Positions 17,694-43,733 of a stretch of DNA of 55,476 nt are shown here, piece by piece; position 1 is the first letter of the stretch, and each line of letters starts with the position of its first letter. The notes under the pieces were generated by a model. It ran no database searches. It was not told the origin of the DNA and worked only from the letters and a program-made list of their open reading frames with translations. This stretch comes from an uncultured Alphaproteobacteria bacterium (GTDB lineage: Bacteria; Pseudomonadota; Alphaproteobacteria; HIMB59; GCA-002718135). The translations under genes and the position numbers were made by a program. The stretch covers positions 5,001 through 60,476 of the forward strand of contig CACOIH010000007.1 of assembly GCA_902627245.1 (NCBI GenBank). Direction: 5' to 3'.

Positions 17694-18149
17694 TTGCTTA
17701 AACCAAATCAAATAAATTATCTTTATAAACATTTTGTTTCGGTTCTTTTTATTTTTGATAGTAAAAACAATATATTAATGCAATTACGAGATAAAAATCC
17801 AGATATTGCTGCACCGAATATGTGGGGACCAGTTGGCGGTAGATGCAACATAGGTGAAACTCCTTATCAATGTTGTGTAAGAGAAACTGAGGAAGAGACA
17901 GGTTACAGCCCAAAAAAAATTTATTGGCATAAAAATATTTTTATAAAAAAAAACATAAATTATAATCAAAAAGAACATTACCTATCTATTTTTTGGAATA
18001 ATTATGATAATCTATCAAAAATTAATTGCTTTGAAGGTCAAAAAATTATCTTTATTAGTTTAAAAGAAATTGAAAAATTAAATACTTTTAAACATAATAT
18101 AGAATGTATTAAGGAGATCTTAAAAATAAAAGAAAAGTATGAAGAATAG
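17694..18149 (+). CDS. Nudix hydrolase
   Basis: A 151-residue protein with a complete Nudix box in GRCNIGETPYQCCVRETEEE followed by TGY, fitting GX5EX7REUXEEXGU. Nudix enzymes hydrolyse nucleoside diphosphate linked substrates, including NDP-sugars. The start appears to be TTG at 17694, 6 bases after the previous stop. Overlap with the cupin-ThDP gene suggests a role in the same sugar pathway, perhaps removing a wrong or dead-end NDP-sugar, but the substrate is unknown. Confidence 0.85.
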   Translation: MLKPNQINYLYKHFVSVLFIFDSKNNILMQLRDKNPDIAAPNMWGPVGGRCNIGETPYQCCVRETEEETGYSPKKIYWHKNIFIKKNINYNQKEHYLSIFWNNYDNLSKINCFEGQKIIFISLKEIEKLNTFKHNIECIKEILKIKEKYEE

Positions 18150-28022: not shown

Positions 28023-29225
28023 ATGTCTATTAAAAATCAATTAAAAAATTTTTATTCTCTTATTTTTATACCATTCATATTAATTATAGTTCTTTTTTCA
28101 AAAATCAAACAAATTAGATTCGGTAAATTACCCTCTTCAAGGATAGGTCACTTTTCTACAAACACCGCTTTAAATATTTTAGAAAAAAAATATCAGAATA
28201 TAAATTCATATGATATATATTATTTAGAAGATAAAGTTTCTAATATTTTTTTGTTAAAGCTTTGGAAAAAAAAATTAGTAATTTTACCAAGATTTATTAT
28301 TTTTCCTTTTTACAACTTTTTTAATAATTTAATAATAAATCATAATTATATCATTTCAGATAATACAAACAGTGACAGAGATCCAAAAAAATTAATAATT
28401 AAAAATGAAATTTTATTAAACTTTGAAAAATCTGATATTGAAAGAGGCAATCTCATTCTAGATAAAATGGGAATAAAAAAAAGTGATGAAATAATTTTAA
28501 TTTATAATAGGGATAGTAAATATTTAAAATTAAACTTTTCTTTTGATTCTGATTATCATAATTTTAGAAATTCAGATATATTCACTTATTTGAAAGCAGC
28601 TGAACAATTAACAAAAAAAAATTACTATGTTGTTAGAATTGGCAAAAATGTTGAGCATAAATTGATCAGTAATAATAACAAAAAAATAATTGACTATGCT
28701 GATAGTCAATTTCAAAATGATTTTATGGATATATTTTTACAATACAGGTGTAAATTTATAATTTCTAATGGCGCAGGTATTGATGAAGTTGCTAGATTAT
28801 TTAAGAAACCAATTTTAAAAGTTAATTTTGCTCCATATATATACATCCCAACTTATCAAAATGATATTTTAGTTTTGCCAAAAAAATATTTAAACAAAAA
28901 AACTAATACCTATCTCACTCTGACTGAATTATTCAATCTCAGATTAGCTCAAAGCTATAACTATAATGATTTTGTGAAAAATGACATCAATGTTATTGAT
29001 AATACTCCAGAAGAAATACTATTTGCTGTTAATGAAATGCTCAAATATCTATCAAATAAAAAGGTTTATTTTCAAAATATTAACAATCAACAACAAGAAT
29101 TTTGGAAAATTTACTATGAAAACTTAATTAAATTTAATCTCAACTATCTTCATTGTAGTCTTGAAAGTAAAACTTCATTTATTTCAGCAAAATTTTTATT
29201 TGAAAATCCATACCTTTTAAAGTAA
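28023..29225 (+). CDS. Putative glycosyltransferase (resembles TIGR04372-type proteins)
   Basis: A 400-residue protein with one hydrophobic N-terminal helix (about 11-27), then RIGHFSTNTALNILEKK, a Rossmann-like block with YYVVRIGKNVEHKL, and a late block CKFIISNGAGIDEVARLFKKP typical of the nucleotide-sugar half of GT-B-like enzymes. I assign it cautiously as an uncharacterised surface-glycan glycosyltransferase. It opens the second plus-strand run and precedes the nonulosonic acid genes by 11 bases, so it could be the enzyme that uses that sugar. Confidence 0.6.
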   Translation: MSIKNQLKNFYSLIFIPFILIIVLFSKIKQIRFGKLPSSRIGHFSTNTALNILEKKYQNINSYDIYYLEDKVSNIFLLKLWKKKLVILPRFIIFPFYNFFNNLIINHNYIISDNTNSDRDPKKLIIKNEILLNFEKSDIERGNLILDKMGIKKSDEIILIYNRDSKYLKLNFSFDSDYHNFRNSDIFTYLKAAEQLTKKNYYVVRIGKNVEHKLISNNNKKIIDYADSQFQNDFMDIFLQYRCKFIISNGAGIDEVARLFKKPILKVNFAPYIYIPTYQNDILVLPKKYLNKKTNTYLTLTELFNLRLAQSYNYNDFVKNDINVIDNTPEEILFAVNEMLKYLSNKKVYFQNINNQQQEFWKIYYENLIKFNLNYLHCSLESKTSFISAKFLFENPYLLK

Positions 29226-29236
29226 TCACTTATACT

Positions 29237-30238
29237 ATGACAGATAAAGTAATTGTATTTGGCTCTGAAGGTTTTATAGGATCTCATTTAGTTGAGCAAT
29301 TAGTAAAAAAAAATTATAAAGTAAAAGCTTTTATTCTGTATAACTTTACCAACTCAAAAGGTTGGATTTCAAACATAGATAAAAATATATTAAAACAAGT
29401 TGAAATAGTTTTTGGAGATATAAGAGATTATCAATCTGTAAATAGTGCAATAAAAAATTGTGATTATATTATTAATTTAGCCGCTTTAATAGGAATACCA
29501 TATTCTTATAGAGCTTCAGAATCTTATTTAGATACTAACGTAAAAGGTACTTTAAATATTTTAAATTCAAGTATGAGTAAGAGTATAAGAAAAATTATAA
29601 TAGCTTCTACAAGTGAAGTGTATGGTAGTGGTCAATATTTTCCAATAGATGAAAATCATCCACTAAATGCTCAGTCACCTTATGCGGCATCAAAAATAGC
29701 CGCAGATCAATTAGCTTTATCATTTTATAAATCTTTTCAATTGCCTGTTTCTATTGTCAGGCCATTTAATACATATGGTCCCAGACAGTCTAATAGAGCT
29801 GTCATTCCAACAATAATTTCTCAACATATTAGCTCATCTAAGATTTTAAATATTGGATCTTTAGATACTATTAGAGATTTTACTTATGTCACTGATACAG
29901 CAGAAGGATTTATTTGTGCAATAAAATCAAAAAAATCAATTGGTGAAGTAGTTAATCTAGGGACAGGCTATGCCTTAAGTATCAGAGATATTATTAAAAT
30001 TGTAAGTGAGGCCACTGAAAAAAAATTGATTGTTAAAGTAGATAAAAATAGAAAAAGACCTGCTAAAAGTGAGGTTAATAAACTTTTAAGTTCTAATAAA
30101 AAGGCAGAAAAAATTCTAAAATGGAAACCTAAATTTAACAATAAAAATGGTTTTGTAAAAGGTATTAATTACACAATTAAATGGTTTAGCAATAAGGAAA
30201 ATCAAAAATTATATGACTCAAAAAAATATACGGTCTAG
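29237..30238 (+). CDS. legB: LegB-type NDP-N-acetylglucosamine 4,6-dehydratase
   Basis: A 333-residue extended SDR with GSEGFIGSHLVEQL, NLAALIGIPYSYRA, IASTSEVYGSGQ, SPYAASKIAAD and the block RPFNTYGPRQSNRAVIPT found in LegB/retaining 4,6-dehydratases. It makes the 4-keto-6-deoxy intermediate that the adjacent LegC aminates. In Campylobacter jejuni the substrate is GDP-GlcNAc, and the PtmE-type guanylyltransferase gene nearby suggests the same here. It overlaps legC by 26 bases. Confidence 0.9.
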   Translation: MTDKVIVFGSEGFIGSHLVEQLVKKNYKVKAFILYNFTNSKGWISNIDKNILKQVEIVFGDIRDYQSVNSAIKNCDYIINLAALIGIPYSYRASESYLDTNVKGTLNILNSSMSKSIRKIIIASTSEVYGSGQYFPIDENHPLNAQSPYAASKIAADQLALSFYKSFQLPVSIVRPFNTYGPRQSNRAVIPTIISQHISSSKILNIGSLDTIRDFTYVTDTAEGFICAIKSKKSIGEVVNLGTGYALSIRDIIKIVSEATEKKLIVKVDKNRKRPAKSEVNKLLSSNKKAEKILKWKPKFNNKNGFVKGINYTIKWFSNKENQKLYDSKKYTV

Positions 30239-31403
30239 TAAAAATACTATTAATTTACATGAGCCACACTTTTTTGGTAACGAAAATAAATACCTTAAAG
30301 AATGTATAAGATCTACATTTGTATCAACAAATGGAAAGTATGTTGAAAAATTAGAAAATAATATTTCTAAATTTTTGAAAAATCAACATTGTGTCTGCAC
30401 AGCTAGTGGCACATCGGCTCTTGATCTTTCTTTAAAAGTCTTAGGAGCGAATGAAAAATGTGAAATAATTGTACCAACTTTAACGTTTATAGCCCCAATA
30501 AACACAGTTATATACAATAATGCCCATCCTATATTTATTGATTGTGATAAATTTCTTAATATTGATGTAAAAAAAGTAATTAATTTCATAAAAGAAAATA
30601 CCTATTTTAAAAATAAAAAAACTTATAATAAATTTACAAAAAAAATTATACTTGCGGTTATAGTTGTGCATATTTTTGGAAACGCTGTACTGTTAGATGA
30701 ATTAAAAAAAATATGCAAAAAAAGAAATATATTCATTATTGAAGATGCTTCAGAAAGTTTTGGAACTAGATACACAAAAGGTAGATACAAAGGTGAATTT
30801 ACAGGAACAATTGGAGATATCGGTTGCTTCTCCTTTAATGGCAACAAAATAATTACTGCAGGATCAGGTGGAGCAATAGTAACTAATAACTCAAAATATG
30901 CGAAAAAATCTTATTATCTTTCTACTCAAGCTAAAGATAATAAAATAAAATTCATACATAATGAAGTTGGTTATAATTATAGAATGTCTAATCTTAATGC
31001 TGCCGTTGCACTGGGTCAATTAGAAAATTTTAAAAAAATTTTAGAATTGAAAAATCAAGTAAGAAAAATTTATAAAAAGATATTCAATAATATTGAAGGA
31101 TTAACATTATTTGAAGGTCCTGAATATTCATCAAATAACAATTGGTTAAATTTATTAAGAATAGACAGATTAAGCGTTAGTTCCTCTCAGAAATTAATTG
31201 AATTTCTTGTTTTAAATAATATAAATGCACGTCCTATATGGCATCTTAACCATTTGCAAAAACCATTTAAAAATTTTCAAAAAATAAAAATTGAAAATGC
31301 TACTAAAATAATACATAAATTTATTTGTTTGCCTTCTAGTGCTTTTCTAAAAGAAAAAGATATTAAAAATATTGGAAAAAAGATTAAAGAATGGATACAA
31401 TAA
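30213..31403 (+). CDS. legC: LegC-type PLP aminotransferase (nonulosonic acid pathway)
   Basis: A 396-residue DegT-family aminotransferase beginning near LHEPHFFGNENKYL, with SGTSALDLSLKVLG, IIEDASESFGT and the PLP lysine Lys212 in FNGNKIITAGSGG. The long loop after residue 130 and the LegB neighbour fit LegC, which puts the 4-amino group on the 4-keto-6-deoxy sugar. It overlaps legB by 26 bases and the acetyltransferase by 13. Confidence 0.9.
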   Translation: MTQKNIRSSKNTINLHEPHFFGNENKYLKECIRSTFVSTNGKYVEKLENNISKFLKNQHCVCTASGTSALDLSLKVLGANEKCEIIVPTLTFIAPINTVIYNNAHPIFIDCDKFLNIDVKKVINFIKENTYFKNKKTYNKFTKKIILAVIVVHIFGNAVLLDELKKICKKRNIFIIEDASESFGTRYTKGRYKGEFTGTIGDIGCFSFNGNKIITAGSGGAIVTNNSKYAKKSYYLSTQAKDNKIKFIHNEVGYNYRMSNLNAAVALGQLENFKKILELKNQVRKIYKKIFNNIEGLTLFEGPEYSSNNNWLNLLRIDRLSVSSSQKLIEFLVLNNINARPIWHLNHLQKPFKNFQKIKIENATKIIHKFICLPSSAFLKEKDIKNIGKKIKEWIQ

Positions 31404-31978
31404 TAATAATTGGGGGAGGTGGTCATGCAAAGTCTTGTATTGATGTTATTGAAAATGAAAACAAGTTCAAAATCATTGGTATTATTGAAAAAAAATCTAA
31501 ATTAAACATTGATATTGATTATCCAATATATTCAGAAGATGAAGATATTAATTTTATTAAAAATAAAACAAATAATATTTTAATTGGTGTTGGTTATATA
31601 AAAAATTATCAAATAAGAAATGAATTATATTTAAAATACAAATCATTTGGATTTAAATTTCCAAAGATCATATCACCTCATTCATATGTTTCAAAAAAAG
31701 TTAAAATAGGTGATGGAACTATAGTGATGCATAAATCAATAATAAACACAAACTGTACAATAGGATCTAATTGTATAATAAATACAGGATCAATAATTGA
31801 ACATGATGTAAAAATAGGAAATAATTGTCATATATCTACATCCGCAGTAGTGAATGGCAATGTATCTATTGGAGATAATGTTTTTATTGGAAGTAATACC
31901 ACATTAGTTAATTCCATAGATATCGAGTCAAATATATTTTTAAAAAGCCATAAATTAATTAAAAATGAAAAAAAATAA
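31391..31978 (+). CDS. legH: Hexapeptide-repeat sugar N-acetyltransferase (NeuD/PglD/LegH-like)
   Basis: A 195-residue protein with an N-terminal Rossmann-like start IIIIGGGGHAKSC and a C-terminal left-handed beta-helix of hexapeptide repeats (VKIGDGTIVM, CTIGSNCIIN, VSIGDNVFIG). This two-part design is that of PglD/NeuD acyltransferases. Between LegC and LegI the expected reaction is acetylation of the 4-amino sugar. The gene symbol rests on context more than on a specific motif. Confidence 0.82.
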   Translation: MDTIIIIGGGGHAKSCIDVIENENKFKIIGIIEKKSKLNIDIDYPIYSEDEDINFIKNKTNNILIGVGYIKNYQIRNELYLKYKSFGFKFPKIISPHSYVSKKVKIGDGTIVMHKSIINTNCTIGSNCIINTGSIIEHDVKIGNNCHISTSAVVNGNVSIGDNVFIGSNTTLVNSIDIESNIFLKSHKLIKNEKK

Positions 31979-32963
31979 AGTAACAATTATAGCTGAAGTA
32001 GGAGTAAACCATAACGGCAGTATCACAATTGCAAAAAAAATGATTGATACTCTCTCAGGGATTGGAGTGGATTTTGTAAAATTTCAATTATACAACACTG
32101 ATGATTTAGTTACAGATAAAGCTAAAAAAGCTAAGTATCAAATTAAAAACTCTAAAAACAATAATCAATTTGATATGTTAAAGAAGTATGAAATCAATGA
32201 TAAGTTTTTGAATAATGTTATTGAATATTGCAAAATAAAAAAAACTAAATTTCTATGCTCAGTATTTGATCTTCAAAGTTTTGAATTAATAAAAAGATAC
32301 AATATCAAGTATATCAAAATACCCTCAGGGGAAATAACAAATTTCCCATTATTAGAAGCAATATCAAAAACTAATCTTAAAATATTTTTATCAACTGGTA
32401 TGTGTAATATAAAAGAAATCAAAGAGTCTCTTAAAGTTTTGAATCAAAAAAAAATTAAAAATATAACGTTAATGCATTGCACAACCGATTATCCAACTTC
32501 TTTTAATGAAGTAAATTTAAATGTAATCAAAGAATTTAAAACATTATTTAATACAAGCTTAGGTTATTCTGACCATACTATAGGTGATGAGGTTGCAATT
32601 GCAGCTGTCGCTTTAGGAGTTACTGTTGTTGAAAAACATTTTACATTAAACAATAAATTTTCTGGACCAGACCACAGTTCAAGTTTAGAGCCAAACGAAT
32701 TTAAAATATTTGTATCAAAAATAAGAAATATTGAAAAAGCATTTGGATCTAAAACTAAAAAACCAACTAAATCAGAGAAGATTAATTTAAAATTTGTAAG
32801 GAAATCAATATATGCATCAAAAGATATTAAAAAAAATGAGTTACTAACAATTAAAAACATCACTACAAAAAGACCAGCTTTAGGTATCAATCCTATGAAT
32901 TGGAATAATGTTATAAATACCAAAGCAAAAAAAAATTACAAAAAAAATCAATTAATTAAATGA
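31965..32963 (+). CDS. legI: Nonulosonic acid synthase (LegI/NeuB family)
   Basis: A 332-residue NeuB-family protein: TIM-barrel start TIIAEVGVNHNGSITIAKKM, IKIPSGEITNFPLLEA, LMHCTTDYPTSF, LGYSDHT, KHFTLNN, and a C-terminal antifreeze-like (SAF) domain (residues ~275-332) with RKSIYASKDIKKNE. It condenses phosphoenolpyruvate with an N-acyl mannosamine-type sugar to a nine-carbon acid. LegB, LegC and a hydrolysing 2-epimerase beside it point to legionaminic acid rather than sialic or pseudaminic acid. Confidence 0.93.
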   Translation: MKKNKVTIIAEVGVNHNGSITIAKKMIDTLSGIGVDFVKFQLYNTDDLVTDKAKKAKYQIKNSKNNNQFDMLKKYEINDKFLNNVIEYCKIKKTKFLCSVFDLQSFELIKRYNIKYIKIPSGEITNFPLLEAISKTNLKIFLSTGMCNIKEIKESLKVLNQKKIKNITLMHCTTDYPTSFNEVNLNVIKEFKTLFNTSLGYSDHTIGDEVAIAAVALGVTVVEKHFTLNNKFSGPDHSSSLEPNEFKIFVSKIRNIEKAFGSKTKKPTKSEKINLKFVRKSIYASKDIKKNELLTIKNITTKRPALGINPMNWNNVINTKAKKNYKKNQLIK

Positions 32964-34114
32964 GAAAAGTATGCATAATATCTAGCTCAAGGGCAGATTA
33001 TGGAATATTTTCTAGATTAATTAAAAAACTTCAAAATGATAAAAAAATAAAATCCTATTTTATAATAACAGGATCCCATCTATTAAAAAAATTTGGTGAG
33101 ACTCAGTCTGAGATTATTAAAGATAAAGTTTTAATTAATAAAAAAATTTTACTTAAAAATCTAAATGATAATAAACTATCAATTACTAAATCTATATCTA
33201 ATCTTACCTATGAATATGGTAAATATTTTTTAAAGATTAGGCCTCAGTTACTGCTAATATTGGGCGATAGATTTGAAATTCATACTGCAGCAATTGTTGC
33301 GTCGATATTTAATATACCAATAGCACATTTTCATGGGGGAGAAATAACAGAGGGTGCTATAGATGAGGGATTTAGGCACTCTATATCTAAATTATCACAT
33401 ATTCATTTTGTAACTCATAATCAATATAAAAAAAATTTGATTCAACTTGGAGAAAGCAAGCAAAATATATTTAATATTGGTTCAATGAGCTTAGATAATA
33501 TTTCTAATACTAAACTGCTAACTAGAAAACAGGCTGAAAAATTCTTGAATTTTAAATTCAAAAATAAAAATATTCTTGTAACTTATCATCCGGTAACATT
33601 GGAGCCAGAAAAAACTGAAATTAATTTTAATAAAATTTTAAAGTGTCTAAAAAAGGTGAAAGAAGTAGGAATAATTTTTACATATCCTAATTTTGATTAT
33701 GGTAATTCTCCGATTACGAAGCTGATTGATAAATTTGTAAAATATAATCAAAATAGATCTGTAGTTTTCAAATCTTTAGGATATAACAACTATATTTCAA
33801 TTCTTAAACATGTAGATATAGTTATGGGAAATTCATCTAGCGCTATTATAGAAGCCCCTTTTCTAAAAACCTACACTCTTAACATAGGTAATAGACAAAA
33901 GGGTCGATTAACTTCTAAGAATGTTATATCTTGTAATGACACAGAAAAATCAATTTTTATTTCACTTAAAAAAATACTTAAGTTATCAAATAATAGGCCT
34001 CTTTCAGACAAAATGTTTTATAAAAAAAATTCTGTCAAAAAAGCTATTAAGATAATTAAAGAAATAAAATTAAATAATATTTTGATTAAAAAATTTAATA
34101 AAATAAATAATTAA
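32960..34114 (+). CDS. legG: NDP-sugar hydrolysing 2-epimerase (LegG/NeuC family)
   Basis: A 384-residue GT-B-fold protein with ISSSRADYGIFSRLIKKL, LGDRFEIHTAAIVA, HFHGGEITEGAIDEGFRH, VTYHPVTLEP and GNSSSAIIEAP, all typical of NeuC/LegG. It removes the nucleotide while inverting C2, giving the mannose-configured substrate of LegI. Pseudaminic acid routes use a different hydrolase (PseG), so this gene is a main argument for a legionaminic-type product. It overlaps legI by 4 bases. Confidence 0.93.
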   Translation: MRKVCIISSSRADYGIFSRLIKKLQNDKKIKSYFIITGSHLLKKFGETQSEIIKDKVLINKKILLKNLNDNKLSITKSISNLTYEYGKYFLKIRPQLLLILGDRFEIHTAAIVASIFNIPIAHFHGGEITEGAIDEGFRHSISKLSHIHFVTHNQYKKNLIQLGESKQNIFNIGSMSLDNISNTKLLTRKQAEKFLNFKFKNKNILVTYHPVTLEPEKTEINFNKILKCLKKVKEVGIIFTYPNFDYGNSPITKLIDKFVKYNQNRSVVFKSLGYNNYISILKHVDIVMGNSSSAIIEAPFLKTYTLNIGNRQKGRLTSKNVISCNDTEKSIFISLKKILKLSNNRPLSDKMFYKKNSVKKAIKIIKEIKLNNILIKKFNKINN

Positions 34115-35163
34115 TGTTCATAAATAAATCTAATTGGAAAAAATCTTTATTAGAAATTAATAATGGTTCTATAATAAAAGACGCTATTAATTCATTAAAT
34201 GAAAGTGGTATGCAAATACTTCTTATAGTAGATAAGAATGAAAAATTAATTGGAACTATTACAGATGGAGATGTTAGAAGAGGACTGCTTAAAGGAAAAA
34301 CACTTAATTCAAATCTTAGAACAATAATTAATAAAAAACCATTATTTATTGATCATAATAATAATCCTAGTAAAAAAAAATTAAAAAATTATAATTCATT
34401 TTTAGTACCTGTATTAAATAAATATCTTAGAGTTATTGGCATAAAGCAGTTTGTTGATGATCTCAAACCTCAATTAGAAAGTACTTTAATCATTATGGCT
34501 GGAGGAAAGGGGCAAAGACTTAAAAGTCTTACCAAAAAAACACCTAAACCAATGTTGCTTTTTAATAAAAAACCTTTGTTAGAACACATAATAACAAGTG
34601 CAAAAAAGCAAGGAATTTATAATTACATTATCTCAGTTAATTATTTAGCTGATAAAATTAAAAAATATTTTAAAAATGGAAATAAATATGGAATTGATCT
34701 AACTTATGTCCAAGAAAAACAAGCATTAGGAACTGCAGGATCTTTATCTTTAATTAAAAATTTAAATAATAATCCATATATAATTATTAATGGAGATGTA
34801 TTAACTAATGTTAATTTTAAAAATATTTTAAATTTTCATTTAAACTCTAAAGCAGATATTACTATTGGAATTATTTCATATGAATACCAAATACCATATG
34901 GTGTCATTGAAACAAATGGTCAAAAGTTTAAATCAGTAAATGAAAAACCATTCATTAAAAATTTTATTAATGCAGGTGTTTATGTTTTTAATAAAAATGT
35001 ATTCTCAAGTATAGAATACAATAAAAAAATTGATATGACTGATTTATTAGTAAAATTAAAAAAAAATAAATATAATATAAAAGTATTTCCTATTCATGAA
35101 AATTGGATTGATATAGGTTTACCAAAAGATTTTAAAAATTTAAAGAATATATTTAATGACTAA
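34114..35163 (+). CDS. ptmE: CBS-domain sugar-1-phosphate nucleotidyltransferase (PtmE-like)
   Basis: A 349-residue protein. A CBS-type N-terminal part (residues ~18-115; GTITDGDVRRGLL) is followed by a nucleotidyltransferase with IIMAGGKGQRLKSLTKKTPKP (residues ~126-146), NGDVLTNVNF and INAGVYVFNK. This architecture matches C. jejuni PtmE, the glucosamine-1-phosphate guanylyltransferase of the GDP-linked legionaminic pathway. It indicates GDP- rather than UDP-activation of the precursor, by family analogy. Confidence 0.87.
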   Translation: MFINKSNWKKSLLEINNGSIIKDAINSLNESGMQILLIVDKNEKLIGTITDGDVRRGLLKGKTLNSNLRTIINKKPLFIDHNNNPSKKKLKNYNSFLVPVLNKYLRVIGIKQFVDDLKPQLESTLIIMAGGKGQRLKSLTKKTPKPMLLFNKKPLLEHIITSAKKQGIYNYIISVNYLADKIKKYFKNGNKYGIDLTYVQEKQALGTAGSLSLIKNLNNNPYIIINGDVLTNVNFKNILNFHLNSKADITIGIISYEYQIPYGVIETNGQKFKSVNEKPFIKNFINAGVYVFNKNVFSSIEYNKKIDMTDLLVKLKKNKYNIKVFPIHENWIDIGLPKDFKNLKNIFND

Positions 35164-36274
35164 ATCTACAAAAGATATTTATTGGTGTAAAAATTGTCTG
35201 GTAATGTCAACTAGACCAAGAATAACATTTAAAGATGGTATTTGTAGCGCTTGTCATTGGTATTTTAAAAAAAAAGAAATGGATTGGTCGAAAAGACAAA
35301 ATCAATTAAATGATTTACTAGATAGGTATAGAAGTAATAATGGCAGTTATGATTGTATAGTACCTGTTAGTGGTGGAAAAGATGGTTCTTATGTATGTTA
35401 TAATTTAAAAGAAAAATATTCAATGAATCCTCTAAGTGTAACCGTTACTCCTGCTTTACCTTTGGCATTAGGTGATAAAAATTTAAAATCATTTGTAGAG
35501 AGTGGTTATACAAATATTTCTATAAATCTTGATTATAATGCAATGCAAAAGTTAAATAAATATGGATTTATTGAAAAAGGTTTTCCTTATTATGGCTGGT
35601 TAATTGCTATCCATACAACTATTTTACACATCTCAAAATCTATGAATATAAAGCTAATTTTTTATGGTGAAGATGGAGAAGTAGAGTATGGTGGTTCAAC
35701 AGAAACACAAAATACGGCGTTTTACGACTTTAATTATCAAAAAAGGGTTTACCTAGAGAGTGGTTATGAAAATCTCTTGGAGTCTATGGATTTAAACTCT
35801 TCTAAGTATTATTTTTTTAAATATCCTAAAGATGATGAATTTTTCAATGACTTAAAAATTACTCATTGGTCTTATTATGAAAATTGGGATCCTTATAGAA
35901 ATTATTTAATAGCAAAAGAATTCTGTGGGCTTGAAGAATCTGATGAAACAAATATGGGTACTTTTACAAACTTTGCACAAAATGATCAATCACTCTATGC
36001 ATTACATACATTTCTGATGTATATAAAGTTCGGTTTTGGTAGAGCAAATCAAGATGCCTCAATTGAAATTAGAAGAGGAGCTATGAATAGAGATCAAGCA
36101 ATAAATCTAGTAAATCTTTATGATGGCAACTTTCCTTTAGAAAATTTACAAACGTACCTAGATTATTTTAAAATGAATGAAGGAGAATTTTTTGAAATTC
36201 TAAAAAAATGGACCAATTATGACTTATTTGATGTAATAAACAATAAATGGGAAAAAAAATTTTATATTGAATAA
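35156..36274 (+). CDS. N-acetyl sugar amidotransferase (WbpG/PseA-like)
   Basis: A 372-residue PP-loop enzyme. An N-terminal cysteine cluster (C11xxC14 and C30xxC33) probably binds zinc, and SGGKDG at 72-77 is the ATP pyrophosphatase loop. Homologues WbpG and PseA turn an N-acetyl group of a surface sugar into an acetamidino group, using ammonia from HisH/HisF-like partners. The next two genes are exactly such partners. The probable target is an acetamido group of the legionaminic acid made by the flanking genes. It overlaps ptmE by 8 bases. Confidence 0.9.
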   Translation: MTKSTKDIYWCKNCLVMSTRPRITFKDGICSACHWYFKKKEMDWSKRQNQLNDLLDRYRSNNGSYDCIVPVSGGKDGSYVCYNLKEKYSMNPLSVTVTPALPLALGDKNLKSFVESGYTNISINLDYNAMQKLNKYGFIEKGFPYYGWLIAIHTTILHISKSMNIKLIFYGEDGEVEYGGSTETQNTAFYDFNYQKRVYLESGYENLLESMDLNSSKYYFFKYPKDDEFFNDLKITHWSYYENWDPYRNYLIAKEFCGLEESDETNMGTFTNFAQNDQSLYALHTFLMYIKFGFGRANQDASIEIRRGAMNRDQAINLVNLYDGNFPLENLQTYLDYFKMNEGEFFEILKKWTNYDLFDVINNKWEKKFYIE

Positions 36275-36280
36275 TAGCAA

Positions 36281-36898
36281 ATGAAACTTGTTGTTATTGA
36301 TACTTCAATCTCGAATATATATTCACTTGAATCTGCTCTAAATTTTGTTGGAGTAAGACCAAATATATCAGTCAATCATGAGGAAATCCTAGGTGCATCT
36401 CATTTAATTCTGCCAGGTATTGGTAATTTTGATAAAGCTATTAAAAAACTAAAAAAAAATAATCTAGATAAAATAATATATGAGTTTGCAATAAATCATA
36501 AAAAACCTGTTTTAGGAATATGTCTTGGAATGCAGTTATTATTTCAGAAAAGTAATGAAGGAACTTTAAACGGTCTTTCAATTATTAAAGGTGAATTTAA
36601 AAAATTAATTTTTGAAAATAAAAACGAATTTAAAGTACCAAATGTTGGATTTCATAGAATAAAAATAAAAAAAAATACAGGTATATTTTCTGATCTAGAA
36701 AATAATTTTTTTTATTTTACTCATTCATTTGGTTTATTCGAAACAAAAAATTTAATTAATTATTCTTTATCAAAACATACAGAAGATTTCGTTTCTGCAT
36801 TTCAAAATAATAATGTTTGCGGTACTCAATTTCATCCTGAAAAAAGTCAATCATCAGGAATAAAACTTCTAAATAACTTTTTAAGATTAAGATCATGA
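36281..36898 (+). CDS. hisH: HisH-like glutaminase subunit for sugar amidotransferase
   Basis: A 205-residue class I glutamine amidotransferase with an intact triad: nucleophile Cys81 in GICLGMQLLF, and His185 and Glu187 in TQFHPEKS. It would release ammonia from glutamine for transfer through the HisF-like protein. Position between a WbpG-like amidotransferase and a HisF-like gene, with no other his gene present, assigns it to glycan amidination and not to histidine synthesis. Confidence 0.9.
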   Translation: MKLVVIDTSISNIYSLESALNFVGVRPNISVNHEEILGASHLILPGIGNFDKAIKKLKKNNLDKIIYEFAINHKKPVLGICLGMQLLFQKSNEGTLNGLSIIKGEFKKLIFENKNEFKVPNVGFHRIKIKKNTGIFSDLENNFFYFTHSFGLFETKNLINYSLSKHTEDFVSAFQNNNVCGTQFHPEKSQSSGIKLLNNFLRLRS

Positions 36899-37713
36899 AG
36901 AGATTAATTTTTACTTTACTATATTGTGATGGATATTTTGTGCTAAGTAGAAATTTTAGACTTCAAAAAGTTGGAAACATTGATTGGTTATTTTCTAACT
37001 ATAAATTTAATCTAGTTAGTAGGTCATTAGATGAAATAATGATAATAGATATTTCAAGAAAAAATAGAAATACTATTAATTTTACAAATGCAATTAAAGA
37101 AATAGCCAAAAAATGTTTTGTACCTATTACTGTAGGCGGAGGTATATCAAATATGGAGATTGCAAAAATTTATATGAATAGTGGCGCTGATAAATTACTA
37201 GTTAATACAGTTATATATAAAAATATTGATTTAATAAAAGAGCTTGTAGATACATATGGTAAACAATGTATTTTAGGGTGTGTTGATTTTCGACTAAGAA
37301 ATAAACATATGTCAAATGAATTAGAAATCTATGTTAACAATGGACAGGAAATTATTAATATAGAATTTTATAAATGGTTAAGTTATTTAGAAAAAAATAA
37401 TATAGGTGAAATAGTGCTACAAAGTATTGATAATGATGGAACAGGTATTGGTTTATTTAAAAATTTAGATCAAAAATTTTTATCTAAAATTTCTGTACCA
37501 TTAATTTTTATGGGAGGTATTGGAAACTACGAGCAAATTTATGAGGGATTTAACAAAAACTACATAAATGCAGTTTCTACAGCAAATATATTAAATTTTA
37601 TTGGTGATTCTTTTTTTAAAAATAGAAATTATTTGATAGAGCAAGGCATTGATCTTCCTAATTGGAATTTTAATGACTTTGATAAACTTGAGAATATTCT
37701 ATATGAGATTTAA
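36895..37713 (+). CDS. hisF: HisF-like ammonia-channel subunit, histidine-synthase Asp lost
   Basis: A 272-residue TIM-barrel protein with HisF hallmarks (RLIFTLLYCDG at the N terminus, PITVGGGISNME, GADKLLVNT, PLIFMGGIGN). In histidine-making HisF the N-terminal strand reads CLDVKDG with a catalytic Asp; here that position is Leu9, while the second conserved Asp (Asp131 in CVDFRLR) is kept. Surface-sugar HisF2 proteins share this loss. It therefore probably channels ammonia but does not cyclise the imidazole. It overlaps HisH by 4 bases. Confidence 0.88.
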   Translation: MKRLIFTLLYCDGYFVLSRNFRLQKVGNIDWLFSNYKFNLVSRSLDEIMIIDISRKNRNTINFTNAIKEIAKKCFVPITVGGGISNMEIAKIYMNSGADKLLVNTVIYKNIDLIKELVDTYGKQCILGCVDFRLRNKHMSNELEIYVNNGQEIINIEFYKWLSYLEKNNIGEIVLQSIDNDGTGIGLFKNLDQKFLSKISVPLIFMGGIGNYEQIYEGFNKNYINAVSTANILNFIGDSFFKNRNYLIEQGIDLPNWNFNDFDKLENILYEI

Positions 37714-38671
37714 AAGAATACTAATTATTGGCTATGGTCAAATAGCTAAAAGACACTCCAAAATATTAAAATCATTAATTAGAAATGTTAAAATAAAGTA
37801 TCTTAGATCTAAAACAAGTAAACAAAAAAAAAATATAATATTTATTTATAATAAAAAAGAAGTTGAAGAATTTAGCCCAGATTTAATTGTAATCGCCAAT
37901 CCTTCATCAATGCATATTAGATCTTCTCTAACATTTTTAAATTTGAAAATACCCTTTTTTATAGAAAAACCAATATCAAATGAATATGAGCTTGCAAAAA
38001 AATTTGTAAATAAATGTAAATTGAATAAAATTAAAATATTTATAGGATATAATTTACTTTATTCTGATTCATTAAATTTAATTAAAAAGACTCTTAAGAA
38101 TAATTTTGGAAAAATTTATTTCATTAGGGTTGATACTGGTTATAATTTAAAATATTGGAGAAAGAATACTAATTATAAAAATACTGTTTCAGCCAATAAA
38201 ATGCTTGGTGGAGGTGTTTTATTAGAATTAAGTCATGAATTAAATTATTTAGAATGGCTTTTTGGAAAAATTGTTAATTTTGATTGCTATTTTACAAAAT
38301 TAAGTGATTTAAATATTAATGTAGAAGATTTTGCTGATATGAGATTATTTTTTAAAAATAACAATCAAAAGGATAAAATTTTTGCTAATGTTTCCCTTGA
38401 TTTTATTAGAAATATTAAAACGAGAAAAATGCATATCTTTGGTGATGTGAAAACAATATTATGGGATGCTACTAAAGGTGAAGTTAAACTTATTTCATTA
38501 AAAAATAATAAAACTAAATTAATAATTTCTAATAAAGAAGATATAAATAATTCTTACATTAATATGTGGAAAAAATGTTTAAATTTATTTGAAAAGTCTA
38601 ACAATTATGAATCTGCTAACAATGCCTTAAAAACATTAAGCATAATTGAGAAAATGAAAAAAAATAAATGA
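37703..38671 (+). CDS. Gfo/Idh/MocA-family oxidoreductase in legionaminic cluster (PtmF-like position)
   Basis: A ~322-residue protein. I place the start at ATG 37703, just before the Rossmann motif ILIIGYGQIAKRH, and not at the more upstream in-frame ATG inside hisF. It has NPSSMHI, the EKP motif in FIEKPIS and a GGGVLLELSHELNYLEWLFG helix of the C-terminal domain. A Gfo/Idh gene between the PtmE-type and CMP-sugar synthetase genes recurs in flagellin/LPS legionaminic clusters. Its reaction there is not certain to me. Confidence 0.82.
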   Translation: MRFKRILIIGYGQIAKRHSKILKSLIRNVKIKYLRSKTSKQKKNIIFIYNKKEVEEFSPDLIVIANPSSMHIRSSLTFLNLKIPFFIEKPISNEYELAKKFVNKCKLNKIKIFIGYNLLYSDSLNLIKKTLKNNFGKIYFIRVDTGYNLKYWRKNTNYKNTVSANKMLGGGVLLELSHELNYLEWLFGKIVNFDCYFTKLSDLNINVEDFADMRLFFKNNNQKDKIFANVSLDFIRNIKTRKMHIFGDVKTILWDATKGEVKLISLKNNKTKLIISNKEDINNSYINMWKKCLNLFEKSNNYESANNALKTLSIIEKMKKNK

Positions 38672-39351
38672 ATTTTTTTGTTTTAATTTGTGCAAGAGGA
38701 GGCTCCAAAGGTATTAAAAATAAAAACTTAAAAAAAATTAATAAAAAATCACTTATTGGCATAAGCATTGATTTAGCAAAAAAAATAAATAATAATCCAA
38801 TAATTGTAGTTTCAACTGATTCTTTAAAAATTCAAAAAGAAGCCTTAAAACATAAAGTAGATATTATAATCAAAAGGCCTAAATATTTATCAACTGATTC
38901 ATCCCCAGAAATTTTAACATGGAAACATGCTATCAATACTCTCAAAAAAAAATATAATCTTAAATTTGATTATTTGATATCATTGCCACCAACCAGTCCA
39001 TTAAGAGATATAAAAGATGTTCATAATTGTATAAATCATTACAATAATAATAAATATGATGGTATTATTACAATTAGTGAATCAAATCGTAATCCTTATT
39101 TTAATATGGTAAAAATCAAAAATAAAAAAGTTAAATTACTGTTTGATAGCAACAAAAAAATATTCAGAAGGCAGGATGCAGTAAAAACTTATGATATTAA
39201 TACAGTAGCTTATATTTTTAGAACCAATTATATTTCTAATTCAAAAAGTTTATTTGATGGCAACATAGGATATACAATTATTCCTAAAGAAAGATCAATA
39301 GATATAGATGAAAATCTTGACTTAAAGATCGCTAGAGTATTAAAAAATTAA
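38668..39351 (+). CDS. legF: CMP-nonulosonic acid synthetase (LegF/NeuA family)
   Basis: A 227-residue cytidylyltransferase with the signature CARGGSKGIKNKNLKKI, STDS, and LPPTSPLRDIKDV, closely following the NeuA/LegF/PtmB pattern. It activates the nonulosonic acid with CTP before glycosyl transfer. It overlaps the Gfo/Idh gene by 4 bases. Substrate preference (legionaminate or amidinated form) cannot be read from the sequence. Confidence 0.92.
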   Translation: MNFFVLICARGGSKGIKNKNLKKINKKSLIGISIDLAKKINNNPIIVVSTDSLKIQKEALKHKVDIIIKRPKYLSTDSSPEILTWKHAINTLKKKYNLKFDYLISLPPTSPLRDIKDVHNCINHYNNNKYDGIITISESNRNPYFNMVKIKNKKVKLLFDSNKKIFRRQDAVKTYDINTVAYIFRTNYISNSKSLFDGNIGYTIIPKERSIDIDENLDLKIARVLKN

Positions 39352-39355
39352 AATT

Positions 39356-40147
39356 ATGACTCTTAGAGATAAATTAAATTTTAAAAATAAAATTATACTA
39401 CTTACAGGAGGGCTTGGGAATTTAGGAAAAGCATTCACTAAAGAATTAATAAATTTAGATGCTAATGTAATAATTTGTGATAATAAAAGTAAGTCTGATT
39501 TTAATATATTTTTAAAAACATTTGAAACTCATTTAAGAAGTAAGATTGATTATATAAAAGTTAATTTATTATCAAAAAAAGATCGAAACTCATTGATAAA
39601 AAAAATTAATAAACTTGATATTTTAATAAATAATGCATCTTTAGTTGGTGACTCAAGATTAAAAGGTTGGAATACTAAATTTCATGATCAATCTATTAGT
39701 TCTTGGTCCAAAGCTTTTGAGATCAATTTAACAGCTACATTTCACTTATGTAGAGATCTAAGCCCTCTTTTAATGAAAAATAAAAAAGGTATCATTATAA
39801 ATATATCATCTATTTATGGATTAATGGCACCAGATATTAGAATATATAAAAATTCAAATATTTTTAACCCTGCAGCGTATTCTGCATCAAAATCAGGATT
39901 AATTAATTTAACAAAATGGCTGGCAGTCAATCTAGCCCCACATATAAGAGTGAATTGTATTTCACCGGGGGGCATAATTAGAAACCAAGATAAATCATTT
40001 ATTAATAAATATAATAATAGAACACCTCTTAATAGAATGGCAACTGAAGAAGATATTGTGGACTCACTTATATTTTTAACTTCAGATATGTCTAGATATA
40101 TTAATGGTCATAACTTAGTTGTAGATGGTGGTTTTAGTATATTTTAA
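39356..40147 (+). CDS. ptmA: Short-chain dehydrogenase, PtmA-like
   Basis: A 263-residue classical SDR with LLTGGLGNLGKAF, LINNASLVGD, NISSIYGLMAPD, AYSASKSGLINLTK (catalytic Tyr/Lys) and the C-terminal YINGHNLVVDGGFS. This SDR type follows the CMP-sugar synthetase in the C. jejuni ptm region, and the order CBS-nucleotidyltransferase, oxidoreductase, CMP synthetase, SDR is retained here. The precise step is not well defined in my knowledge; the symbol reflects family and synteny. Confidence 0.85.
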   Translation: MTLRDKLNFKNKIILLTGGLGNLGKAFTKELINLDANVIICDNKSKSDFNIFLKTFETHLRSKIDYIKVNLLSKKDRNSLIKKINKLDILINNASLVGDSRLKGWNTKFHDQSISSWSKAFEINLTATFHLCRDLSPLLMKNKKGIIINISSIYGLMAPDIRIYKNSNIFNPAAYSASKSGLINLTKWLAVNLAPHIRVNCISPGGIIRNQDKSFINKYNNRTPLNRMATEEDIVDSLIFLTSDMSRYINGHNLVVDGGFSIF

Positions 40148-40153
40148 ATTGAT

Positions 40154-41098
40154 ATGAAAATTTATAGAAAATCAATAAAATCAAATAATTATATAGTTAC
40201 GCTAAATATCGGATCAAAGTATCTAAATGATTGGTCTAAATACTCTCTACCACTCTGGTTAAAATATTGTAAGAAACATGATTTAGGTCTGATAAGTTTT
40301 AATAAAGATTTAATATCTAAACAAAGCAAATACTATAAAAAGAAACAGTGGCAAAAACTTCTAATAGGATATGAGTTACTTAAAGCCGACCTTAATATTA
40401 AAAATATATGTTATTTAGACTCAGATATTCTAATTAATTTTTATTCGCCAAATATTTTTAACTTTCATCATAAAAGTTCAGTCTCATTGGTCTCTCAGTT
40501 CAATAATATTCCCTATGATGATAAATTAACAAGAAAAAAAATCTCAATTTTCAGGAATACATTTTATTCAAAAAAATACCCACTAAATTCAGCTATACAT
40601 ATGAATATATCACAAATTTATAAATATCATAATCTTGAAGTACAAAAAGATTTTTGTTGCACGGGGCTATTTATAATAAATTTAGAAAAATATGCTAATT
40701 TATTTAAGAGTTTCTTTTATAAATATAATCAAAACATATCATCAATTACTGATGGTGGTGAAGAAGCTTATATGAATTATGATATTCATAAAAACTGTAA
40801 AGTTAATTTTATAGATTATCGATTTCAAGCACTATGGGTATTTGAGATGGCTAATTATTATCCACATCTATATAAATACAAAAATATTAAAAATAACTTA
40901 ATTATACAAAGTGTAGAAAATAGCCTAATTAATAATTATTTTTTACATTTCGCTGGATCATGGTATGAATCTAATATGTGGAAAAATTCTAAGATTTTAA
41001 AAAGTACAGATAGTTTAAAAATTATTAAAAATTTAAATAAAATTAATACTATTGAATTCAATTCAAAGCCTGCTGGAGTAATCAAGCCAAACAAATGA
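40154..41098 (+). CDS. Putative GT-A glycosyltransferase with DxD motif (GT8-like)
   Basis: A 314-residue protein with YIVTLNIGSKYLNDWSK at the N terminus, the metal-binding Asp89-Ser-Asp91 in CYLDSDILI, CCTGLFIINLEKY and DGGEEAYMN before the C-terminal third, a layout of GT8-like and other GT-A transferases. No membrane helix is seen. It begins a three-gene set (transferase, sulfotransferase, beta-propeller protein) after the legionaminic genes. Confidence 0.68.
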   Translation: MKIYRKSIKSNNYIVTLNIGSKYLNDWSKYSLPLWLKYCKKHDLGLISFNKDLISKQSKYYKKKQWQKLLIGYELLKADLNIKNICYLDSDILINFYSPNIFNFHHKSSVSLVSQFNNIPYDDKLTRKKISIFRNTFYSKKYPLNSAIHMNISQIYKYHNLEVQKDFCCTGLFIINLEKYANLFKSFFYKYNQNISSITDGGEEAYMNYDIHKNCKVNFIDYRFQALWVFEMANYYPHLYKYKNIKNNLIIQSVENSLINNYFLHFAGSWYESNMWKNSKILKSTDSLKIIKNLNKINTIEFNSKPAGVIKPNK

Positions 41099-41832
41099 AT
41101 AAAAAAATTAATATTAACTTAGTATGTGGTTGTGGCCATACTGGGAGTACTATAATTTCAAGAGTAATAGGCGAGCACTCTAAAATTTATTTTCCAAAAT
41201 ATGAAACAAATACTTTCTTATTATATAATCACTTCCATCATCAAAGATTAGTCAAAAAATTATACAATGAATGTATTAAATCTAAAAAAAAACAAATTTT
41301 AGAAAAAACTAATAGGCATATTTGGCATATTGATTATATAAGAAGAGAGTATAAAAATGTTAAATTTATTTTAACTACCCGAAAATCAAAAGATGTTATA
41401 GCTTCACTCTATAAAAGATATAAAAAAGACAAGAATGCTATTGAAATAGCTATTAGAAAGTATTCTGATGACTCTTTATGTACTATAAGACAAATTGATA
41501 AGAGTGATACACACTTAATAAGATACGAAGATTTTATTAAAAATAAAGAAAAGACCATGAAAGATGTATTTAAATTTTTAAATTTAAAATATGAAAATGA
41601 AATCTTTGATTTTTATAAAAATAAAATTTCTTGGAATAGTCAAACAAAAATTATTAAAACTGATGGAGTTGGTGAATTAAAACATGATTTACTTAGAAAT
41701 TGGCAGGTTAATCAAAAGATATTTAAAAATAAAAAAAAGTGGAAAGAAATAATACCAAAAAAATATTGGAAATTAGTAAATTCATTTCAAGAAAACAAAG
41801 GTAAAAAAATAATGAAAGAACTTGGTTATTAA
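41095..41832 (+). CDS. PAPS-dependent sulfotransferase
   Basis: A 245-residue sulfotransferase. The 5'-phosphosulfate-binding loop is CGCGHTGST (residues 11-19). The 3'-phosphate site is LTTRKSKDVIASLYKR with Arg96 and Ser104. Length is typical of small bacterial carbohydrate sulfotransferases. It suggests a sulfated surface glycan, if the cell makes PAPS; no PAPS synthesis genes are in this window. It overlaps the preceding transferase gene by 4 bases. Confidence 0.85.
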   Translation: MNKKININLVCGCGHTGSTIISRVIGEHSKIYFPKYETNTFLLYNHFHHQRLVKKLYNECIKSKKKQILEKTNRHIWHIDYIRREYKNVKFILTTRKSKDVIASLYKRYKKDKNAIEIAIRKYSDDSLCTIRQIDKSDTHLIRYEDFIKNKEKTMKDVFKFLNLKYENEIFDFYKNKISWNSQTKIIKTDGVGELKHDLLRNWQVNQKIFKNKKKWKEIIPKKYWKLVNSFQENKGKKIMKELGY

Positions 41833-41833
41833 T

Positions 41834-42736
41834 ATGTTTAGAGTCTTAAAAAAAAAAATTATTATTGATCAAGACATAAAAAAAAAAAAAATTAATATCT
41901 GTAATCCAACTTGTATTGAGTTACCAAAATGGTGCACAAATAGATTAGGTAAATATTATTTATATTATGCTGACCATAAAGGAAAATTTATCAAACTTGC
42001 TTGCAGTAATAATCTTTTTGGTAATTGGATAAATGTTAATAAAAAAATTGCTCCAATCGCTGATTTTAAAAATGCAGTAAATCACATTGCATCACCCGAC
42101 ATTTATATAGATAATATAAATAAGAAGATTTATCTTTTTACGCATTCACATTCAAATGAAAAGATAGGTCAATGGACATTTTTATCAGTTTCAAGTGATG
42201 GTATTAATTTCAAACAAATGTCTACCAAATGTCTAGCCCCTTTTTATCTAAGAGTTTTTAAATTTAAAAATTATTTTTATGGAATCTCTAAAGGAGGAAA
42301 TCTGTGGAGGACTAAAAAAATTACTAACAAATTCAAAAACCACCAAAACCTTTTTAATAAAAAATTAAATAAAGAGTTTTTACATAATAAGCCAGGTTCT
42401 ATTAGGCATGTGGGAATTTTAATTAAAAAAAATAAATTATATTGTTTTTATACCAAAATAGGTGACATGCCTGAGAGAATATATTATTCCTGGCTAAGTT
42501 TATCAAATAATTATAAGAAATGGATGCTACAAAAAGAACATGAATTGTTAAGACCTACAAGAGAATTTGAGGGAAAAAAACTTAAACTGAGACCTTCAAA
42601 ACCTGGTAATTCAACTTTATTTGAAAATGCAGTTAGAGATCCCTACTTATTCGAAAATAATAAAAAAATTTATCTTTTCTATTCAGTTAAAGGAGAATTT
42701 GGGTTAGCAATAGCAGAATTAAAATTTTATGGATAA
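41834..42736 (+). CDS. Predicted five-bladed beta-propeller protein, glycoside-hydrolase-like (GH32/43-type fold)
   Basis: A 300-residue protein without signal peptide, with repeated propeller-blade patterns: RLGKYYLYYADHKGKFIKLA, HIASPDIYIDNINKKIYLF, GISKGGNLWRT and NAVRDPYLFENNKKIYLFYS. These resemble GH43/GH32 propellers. A catalytic set cannot be assigned with confidence. I prefer ATG 41834 over TTG 41822. Intracellular location and the neighbouring sulfotransferase suggest it acts on an assembled or precursor glycan. A14 and A11 runs lie near the start and are both in frame. Confidence 0.65.
   Translation: MFRVLKKKIIIDQDIKKKKINICNPTCIELPKWCTNRLGKYYLYYADHKGKFIKLACSNNLFGNWINVNKKIAPIADFKNAVNHIASPDIYIDNINKKIYLFTHSHSNEKIGQWTFLSVSSDGINFKQMSTKCLAPFYLRVFKFKNYFYGISKGGNLWRTKKITNKFKNHQNLFNKKLNKEFLHNKPGSIRHVGILIKKNKLYCFYTKIGDMPERIYYSWLSLSNNYKKWMLQKEHELLRPTREFEGKKLKLRPSKPGNSTLFENAVRDPYLFENNKKIYLFYSVKGEFGLAIAELKFYG
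41848..41891. repeat. Two long poly-A runs (A11 and A14) inside a gene start
   Basis: Positions 41848-41858 are eleven As and 41878-41891 fourteen As, among the longest homopolymers seen in the window. Both encode lysine runs (LKKKI and IKKKKI) and keep the propeller gene in frame. Such tracts are natural slippage sites, so the gene could switch on or off by A-run length change. Confidence 0.85.
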
Positions 42737-43727: not shown

Positions 43728-43733
43728 AATACT

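Follow-up and report, generated by a model that had tools for sequence, protein, structure and literature searches.

Legionaminic acids are sialic-acid look-alikes that have been studied mainly in pathogens. In the papers cited here and below by accession, Campylobacter jejuni uses GDP-linked intermediates, with GDP-GlcNAc (GlcNAc, N-acetylglucosamine) as the substrate of its LegB, whereas Bacillus subtilis makes legionaminic acid (Leg) through UDP-linked ones (PMC7439481), and the O-antigen of Legionella pneumophila is reported as the 5-acetamidino form, its PtmG homologue being said to correspond to the enzyme that converts CMP-Leg5Ac7Ac to CMP-Leg5Am7Ac (PMC3766260). Here we describe a legionaminic-type cassette in a 55,476-nucleotide stretch of DNA (henceforth ‘the window’; C7:5001-60476, where C7 is contig CACOIH010000007.1) from an uncultured alphaproteobacterium of the HIMB59 lineage, whose genome (GCA_902627245.1; 1.19 Mb in 47 contigs) is 62% complete and carries a 16S rRNA gene at C7:356-1842, just ahead of the window. 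The cassette, a legionaminic acid set that includes an amidination module of its own, is real, conserved well and of an ordinary kind, and we consider it highly probable that it directs the synthesis of a CMP-activated legionaminic-type sugar with one acetamidino group.

Twelve tightly packed open reading frames (ORFs) on the plus strand fill positions 29237-40147, from the start of the LegB gene to the stop codon of a PtmA-like short-chain dehydrogenase (SDR) gene. Adjacent frames overlap by 1-26 bases or are separated by 4-6 bases when the start of the Gfo/Idh gene is taken as the ATG at 37703 instead of the listed TTG at 37649. Families were called by comparing NCBIfam and Pfam profile scores (in bits) with their curated cut-offs, and all the genes that a first-pass annotation, made from the sequence alone, had named at this place were found among these frames, which read in order as follows.

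29237-30238, plus strand: LegB-like NDP-GlcNAc 4,6-dehydratase (TIGR04180 is the top family at 429.8, below its cut-off of 475)
30213-31403, plus strand: LegC aminotransferase (TIGR04181 423.2, above 420)
31391-31978, plus strand: NeuD/PglD-type N-acetyltransferase in the place of LegH (TIGR03570 173.6, above 160.8; PglD_N and Hexapep matches)
31965-32963, plus strand: NeuB family synthase, LegI (TIGR03569 406.4, above 399.65; PseI 258.6, below 340.25)
32960-34114, plus strand: NeuC family hydrolysing 2-epimerase, LegG (TIGR03568 406, above 235.9)
34114-35163, plus strand: PtmE-like protein, a CBS region followed by a sugar-1-phosphate nucleotidyltransferase (NTP_transferase 136.8, above 21.2; CBS 23.2, just below 24)
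35156-36274, plus strand: N-acetyl sugar amidotransferase of the WbuX family, clade I (TIGR03573 319.7, above 203.2; also motifs and trees)
36281-36898, plus strand: HisH-type glutaminase (TIGR01855 185.7, above 105.4)
36895-37713, plus strand: HisF-like barrel, presumed ammonia channel (WbuZ is the top family at 194, below 299.7)
37703-38671, plus strand: Gfo/Idh oxidoreductase in the place of PtmF (GFO_IDH_MocA 35.5, above 24)
38668-39351, plus strand: CMP-nonulosonic acid (CMP-NulO) synthetase in the place of LegF (CTP_transf_3 57, above 22.6; PseF is the best NCBIfam match at 96.7, below 205.7)
39356-40147, plus strand: PtmA-like SDR (adh_short_C2 137.3, above 27; NF050062, the PtmA family, 127.9, below 350)

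The LegC, NeuD, NeuB, NeuC, WbuX-family and HisH proteins exceed NCBIfam cut-offs, and the PtmE-like and Gfo/Idh proteins pass those of Pfam and none of NCBIfam. With LegC, NeuB (LegI) and NeuC (LegG) all over cut-off, the pathway is of legionaminic type, as the first-pass annotation had proposed, and not of the sialic (Neu) or pseudaminic (Pse) type. The models that NeuB and NeuC pass take their names from the sialic acid pathway. The Neu pathway needs neither LegB nor LegC, and it was rejected because both share this operon. The Pse pathway was rejected because the PseI score lies under its cut-off (258.6 against 340.25) and because the window NeuB has SGE where those of loci L041 and L042 (locus numbers are our own) have SFE; a Phe at this site has been linked to Pse (PMC7371886). 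Among solved chains LegC is nearest to 7b0m (237.8 bits) and 1o61 (213), with the perosamine synthetase 3bn1 behind (171.9), and the KIPSGE motif of the window NeuB is the same in all six LegI proteins of Campylobacterales ptm-type loci. Tyr is given for Leg at NeuB position 184 (PMC7371886), but this position is unusable as a test, since the window protein and the three Campylobacterales LegI that match a second NeuB pattern have Thr.

The resemblance of the gene order to that of C. jejuni, which had also been proposed, was borne out. The curated PtmA family served to locate Campylobacterales loci for comparison (298 genomes, with 6 over the cut-off and 8 at E<=1e-90), and six of the eight regions (L153-L157 and L160) share with the window the order LegI-LegG-PtmE-Gfo-LegF-PtmA, L153 having extra ORFs between LegG and PtmE; L158 and L159 are without it. 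The window PtmE is 36-42% identical to the genes in the PtmE position of these six loci, and the Gfo/Idh and PtmA genes likewise hold the same places. The collinear PtmE-PtmF-LegF-PtmA set thus stands in the order of L153-L157, from which L160 differs only by an amidotransferase gene between PtmE and Gfo, as the window does.

The same arrangement recurs elsewhere. When GTDB genomes were searched with six aligned amidotransferases, at least 214 relatives in at least 79 distinct loci (49-62% identity) were confirmed, and the counts that follow refer to 78 loci among the matches listed, L078 being dropped as it shares a contig with L036. These loci were picked by amidotransferase similarity alone; their neighbouring genes were labelled by the best BLAST match among the window proteins and a small number of reference ORFs, with bit thresholds in the 110-row tree work and the 46-relative counts below and with none in the gene-order counts. 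The full 12-gene order was found in five of the 78 (L056, L059, L060, L064 and L069; unassigned ORFs ignored), which include Methylomonas (L056), Chlorobium (L059) and a metagenome-assembled genome (MAG) of the Nitrosomonadaceae, and because loci chosen by the amidotransferase alone repeat this order it is not a matter of chance. The module follows PtmA in 34 loci (5 of which have a single unassigned ORF in the gap) and sits between PtmE and Gfo in 7. In 9 it precedes Gfo but has on its upstream side either a gene other than PtmE (PtmA in 3) or the contig end, and in 28 it is placed elsewhere. The embedding of the module between PtmE and Gfo/Idh, to which the first-pass annotation had drawn attention, is therefore real but, with the same placement in 7 of 78 relatives, neither special nor unusual. 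We further counted neighbours for the 46 members of clade I (the clade of the window enzyme, see below) that have at least 7 kb of sequence on both sides, five second copies from Acidimicrobiia being left out: LegI, LegG and PtmE occur together in 30, LegF in 39, PtmA in 37, HisH with HisF in 45, and a NeuB match (at least 120 bits, within 9.5 kb) in 37. A WbuX match was present in 41 of the 110 genomes of the window’s own family (32 over the cut-off) and, in a genus search around a Legionella MAG, in three of seven genomes (one over the cut-off); in viral contigs three stretches fitted the patterns and none was confirmed.

The HisH translation holds a Cys in GICLGMQ and a His-Glu pair in FHPEKS, which we take to be the catalytic residues of a glutaminase. 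In the HisF-like protein, HisF D11 and K19 are aligned to Leu and D130 is kept, the three positions being the catalytic ones of HisF. This protein scores 141.7 against the HisF model of imidazole glycerol phosphate (IGP) synthase (cut-off 294.55) and 142.9 against AglZ-HisF2 (cut-off 310). Because D11 and K19 are replaced by Leu and the same genome has a separate hisF over the cut-off (G000:C1:20645-21394), a spare histidine gene was rejected, and the barrel is best read from its sequence as a presumed ammonia channel and not as an IGP synthase. The WbuX-family enzyme has a PP-loop, SGGKDG, starting at S72 and cysteines at C11, C14, C30 and C33; S72, G73, G74, K75 and D76 and all four cysteines are invariant across the six aligned sequences. 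A PP-loop and a CxxC...CxxC zinc motif are described for the L. pneumophila enzyme LpNASAT (structure 8wex), the PP-loop of which ends in Ser where that of the window has Gly (PMC10607449).

We infer the following course of synthesis. PtmE would charge GlcNAc-1-P, probably with GTP, after which LegB would dehydrate the sugar, LegC aminate it at C4 and the NeuD-type enzyme acetylate it; LegG would then release and epimerise the sugar, LegI condense it with phosphoenolpyruvate and LegF yield CMP-Leg. HisH would free ammonia from glutamine and the HisF-like barrel would guide it to the WbuX-family enzyme, which would activate an N-acetyl group with ATP and swap its oxygen for =NH, either on the CMP-sugar or earlier, and at either the N5 or the N7 N-acetyl group. 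The Gfo/Idh and PtmA-like proteins, in the places of PtmF and PtmA, would probably help to supply the precursor. The amidine would put a positive charge on a carboxylate-bearing sugar which, if displayed on a surface polysaccharide, may affect how phages adsorb and how the surface is charged.

The amidotransferase had been labelled PseA-type, and this label was not upheld. A 36-row tree resolved four clades with 100% bootstrap each: clade I, with the window enzyme (supports 100/100); clade II, its nearest neighbour (100/99); Campylobacter PtmG (100/100; four rows, labelled by position); and Campylobacter PseA (100/100; three rows, L173-L175, labelled by gene neighbourhood, with a NeuB-like gene adjoining the PseA module in L173 only). 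Judged by this tree, which like the other is drawn with a midpoint root and has neither 8wex itself nor WbpG among its rows, the window enzyme belongs to a clade of its own and to neither the PseA nor the PtmG branch of Campylobacter. Within clade I it pairs with L036 (86/82, an unstarred fork) inside a starred group of six that also includes L056, L058, L067 and L103; measured along the branches, L056 and L058 lie closest to it. In the 110-row tree it falls in a clade of 82 rows (Shimodaira-Hasegawa-like approximate likelihood ratio test support of 100) with 14 phylum labels, one of them that of an archaeal MAG. 8wex scores 751 bits against the second copy of L108, 454 against L045, 338 against L043, 165 against the window enzyme and 102 against a PtmG; the window enzyme lies outside clade II, whose rows match 8wex best. 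Overall, the first-pass interpretation keeps its legionaminic-type pathway, gene order and module placement, and loses the PseA-type label.

Several observations weigh against the assignment of the operon to amidinated legionaminic acid. The LegB, HisF-like, LegF and PtmA-like proteins all score below their curated cut-offs, and the top NCBIfam match of the PtmA-like SDR is a generic oxidoreductase (PRK09186, 194.9 bits). The second NeuB motif reads HCTTDYP in the window against HCTTEYP in three of the six ptm-type LegI, and its pattern is unmatched in the other three. Of the 46 clade I relatives, 16 lack one or more of LegI, LegG and PtmE and nine have no NeuB match (same limits as above), so that the clade I enzyme is not tied to Leg alone. 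Finally, the 110-row tree groups the window enzyme with L036 and L103 (95), both without a LegI, LegG or PtmE match in the sequence covered, which for L036 is only 3.2 kb.

Two readings compete for the nitrogen that would carry the amidine. To the first, in which the product is Leg5Am7Ac (N5), exactly as reported for L. pneumophila and C. coli, we give close to an even chance: the nearest other clade, clade II, matches the L. pneumophila structure and the O-antigen of that organism is reported as 5-acetamidino (PMC3766260), the N5 position being known for the organism and not for 8wex itself; Leg5Am7Ac is the form named for C. coli (PMC7099621); and clade II by itself fills the same Leg slots in the window’s genus, for example in L039. 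Two points tell against N5. One Leg operon carries clade I and clade II in tandem, and were both N5 enzymes one of them would be superfluous; and some clade I members adjoin genes for making a sugar whose sole nitrogen is at C4. It is therefore possible, and we propose it tentatively, that clade I is an uncharacterised and N7-directed group and that the cell makes Leg5Ac7Am rather than Leg5Am7Ac.

PtmG is reported to yield Leg5Am7Ac (PMC3766260). An N7 enzyme has been claimed within the family, but the claim is disputed: PseA is said to form Pse5Ac7Am, with an N7 amidine (PMC7099621), whereas the C. jejuni sugar is written Pse5Am7Ac in an abstract (PMC3068675). Our evidence for N7 comes from gene neighbourhoods. 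Nine of the 78 loci, all labelled Actinomycetota, have clade I, HisH and HisF followed by another WbuX gene. The five of these second copies whose length allowed a place in the tree (L080, L091, L093, L108 and L126) all belong to clade II and have a second HisF after them. In L080, L091 and L108 (Acidimicrobiia) the tandem of clade I and clade II, with a single HisH, closes a run of genes from LegB to PtmA; the PtmE frame of L108 is split in two, and the L080 aminotransferase scores equally against the window LegC (224 bits) and a perosamine-type reference (221 bits). The tandem hints at N7 for clade I because a single site would not call for a second enzyme; the Acidimicrobiia cases come from one lineage and so probably represent one event. 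In addition, a CBS-aminotransferase gene adjoins the clade I members L036, L062, L067 (SAR86) and L103 (Prochlorococcus). The L067 protein is nearest to perosamine synthetases (328 bits), those of L036, L062 and L103 score 377-527 bits against it and 178-198 against the window LegC, and a GDP-mannose-dehydratase (GMD)-like gene stands before the CBS-aminotransferase gene in L103 and before NeuB in L067 (identified by Pfam in L067). A perosamine-type sugar has nitrogen only at C4, the later N7, and these neighbours therefore also hint at N7; in L103, with no NeuB match in the sequence covered, the sugar may be perosamine itself.

Against an N7-directed clade I, the NeuB motif of L062 is of Leg type, clade II occurs alone in Leg-type loci of the window’s genus (L043, L044 and L045) and in L039 clade II takes the slot after PtmE (PtmE-WbuX-...-LegF), as if, to judge from gene content, clades I and II could replace each other in Leg slots. 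The trees cannot decide between N5 and N7 because no clade I member of known product was found. The term ‘Leg5Ac7Am’ was not found in open-access papers on related sugars, a scope outside which most subscription papers lie, and the literature on these sugars with Pelagibacter or SAR11 named neither organism among the matches listed. Should clade I be N7-directed, Acidimicrobiia with both clades in one Leg operon would produce Leg5Am7Am, with two amidines, the target of relatives next to perosamine-type aminotransferases would be a sugar that has a single nitrogen, the later N7, and genome-based predictions of Leg5Am7Ac from clusters with a clade I enzyme would need revision.

The GDP linkage claimed by the first-pass annotation is favoured by the collinear gene set and left undecided by the PtmE family scores, which do not separate GTP from UTP. 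The PtmE-like protein scores 156.4 against Arch_glmU, 149.1 against mannose-1-P guanylyltransferase, 123.5 against HddC and 122.5 against MurU, none over cut-off; its best solved chain is a mannose-1-phosphate guanyltransferase beta (99.5 bits), with others nearly tied and a UTP-glucose-1-P enzyme at 87.1, and NF050062, the PtmA equivalog that marks the GDP-type variant, reaches 127.9 against 350. Since the PtmE scores are much the same for families that use GTP and families that use UTP, it is collinearity that supports the GDP route, and by it the cassette is probably of GDP type. UDP-linked intermediates, a route that exists in B. subtilis (PMC7439481), would be in keeping with the mixed scores; we regard them as unlikely here, as the whole Campylobacter PtmE-Gfo-LegF-PtmA set is present and collinear and the best solved chain is a guanyltransferase, though by a small margin. 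It is quite unlikely that 8-epi- or 4-epi-legionaminic acid is made instead of Leg: 8eLeg5Am7Ac is reported from Aliivibrio salmonicida, where a Leg-type cluster with PtmE is present (PMC7371886), but the 12-gene set contains no extra epimerase gene, even if an SDR encoded in another part of the window could fill that role. Very unlikely, finally, is a module that modifies a different N-acetyl sugar in the same polysaccharide, such as a UDP-linked 6-deoxy sugar made via the pair at 42729-44633 (PseB 473.3, above 407.75, with an RmlD-like gene beside it), since, although the FucNAm of E. coli O145 is attributed to WbuX (PMC10607449) and 9 of 46 clade I relatives are without a NeuB match, the module lies inside the Leg order with frames overlapping those of PtmE and Gfo/Idh and is so placed in 7 of 78 loci, and a FucNAm-type target is weakened by a wecB-family search of the 62% complete genome that gave LegG alone.

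The flanks of the 12-gene legionaminic set look like a surface polysaccharide locus. Directly ahead of it, at 28023-29225 on the plus strand, lies a gene for a TIGR04372 family glycosyltransferase (195.3 bits, cut-off 45), a candidate sugar transferase; homologues occur at three examined loci, L056, L060 (adjoining PtmA) and L128 (adjoining WbuX). The PseB and RmlD-like pair at 42729-44633 is also found before LegB in the Chlorobium locus L059. One gene past the cassette a sulfotransferase-family gene (41095-41832; Sulfotransfer_3 58.4, above 27) suggests by its family that the glycan may be sulfated. The same locus holds two consecutive thiamine-diphosphate enzymes, the first with a weak cupin match (18139-22490), perhaps for a branched sugar; an asparagine-synthase-type amidotransferase (46244-48037; TIGR01536 410.5, above 267.1); and, in a row at 51297-53342, genes of 3-deoxy-D-arabino-heptulosonate 7-phosphate (DAHP)-synthase, CBS and cytidylyltransferase type, probably for the synthesis of 3-deoxy-D-manno-octulosonic acid (Kdo). 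A CBS region stands in front of two unlike enzymes, the PtmE nucleotidyltransferase (34114-35163) and the perosamine-type aminotransferase of L067 (L067:8509-9942), which suggests that it is a shuffled regulatory domain.

Related loci also revealed a candidate nonulosonic route from GDP-mannose. In L067:4862-15022, L168:7238-12580 and L169:7548-14100 a GMD-like gene, an AP_endonuc_2 barrel, a perosamine-type aminotransferase, NeuB and a CMP-NulO synthetase (split in two frames in L169) lie together, with NeuD inside the run in L067 and L168 and further downstream in L169. These runs have no LegG match and no close LegB, and their NeuB has SAD or SMH where SGE stands elsewhere. Titles and abstract openings found for perosamine with nonulosonic acid or NeuB describe no such route among the matches listed. 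Of the 110 genomes of the family 6 carry the barrel (E<=1e-8), as does 1 of the 385 of the class (E<=1e-15), and among the six family genomes the GMD run is confined to L168 and L169. The L067 barrel (L067:7632-8483) and five relatives keep His56, His103, Glu155, Asp196, His199, His226, Asp235 and Glu260, a pattern reminiscent of the metal ligands of endonuclease IV. A model of this barrel (mean predicted local distance difference test score 88.8) is nearest by Z to sugar 3-epimerases and is also like endonuclease IV, and because both resemble it the model does not decide between epimerase and hydrolase; the barrel could replace LegG or PseG. In L038 a formyltransferase gene (L038:3513-4268; Formyl_trans_N 83.9 bits) follows NeuB at the expected place of NeuD, followed by the barrel, a CBS-aminotransferase and a WbuX gene cut by the contig end, perhaps for an N-formyl sugar. 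In the window’s genus, L041:8477-15333 and L042:7804-14788 each combine a single NeuB with two amidotransferase-HisH-HisF modules that belong to other clades.

The legionaminic cassette is thus common, gene for gene, to a low-GC alphaproteobacterium, Methylomonas, Chlorobium and a Nitrosomonadaceae MAG, from which it follows that the presumed chemistry of amidinated Leg is not confined to pathogens. Among the described systems closest to it is the GDP-type ptm/leg locus of Campylobacter, with which it shares the LegI-LegG-PtmE-Gfo(PtmF)-LegF-PtmA order and, in L160, an amidotransferase between PtmE and Gfo; there, however, the amidotransferase is of another clade, whereas the window operon contains HisH and HisF. 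The Leg cluster of Plesiomonas shigelloides has PtmA, LegF, PtmF, PtmE, LegH, LegI, LegG and LegC in order, but no amidotransferase among ORFs 1-9 of its Table 5 (PMC4481668). The Leg locus of L. pneumophila likewise has NeuB, NeuC, NeuD, an aminotransferase and a PtmG-homologous amidotransferase, but a UDP-linked route is proposed there (PMC3766260), and its solved amidotransferase, 8wex, has its best matches in clade II and a much lower score against the window enzyme. The PseA-HisH-HisF module of Campylobacter has the same three-gene order in L173-L175, whereas its amidotransferase is 31-32% identical to the window enzyme and falls in a separate clade.

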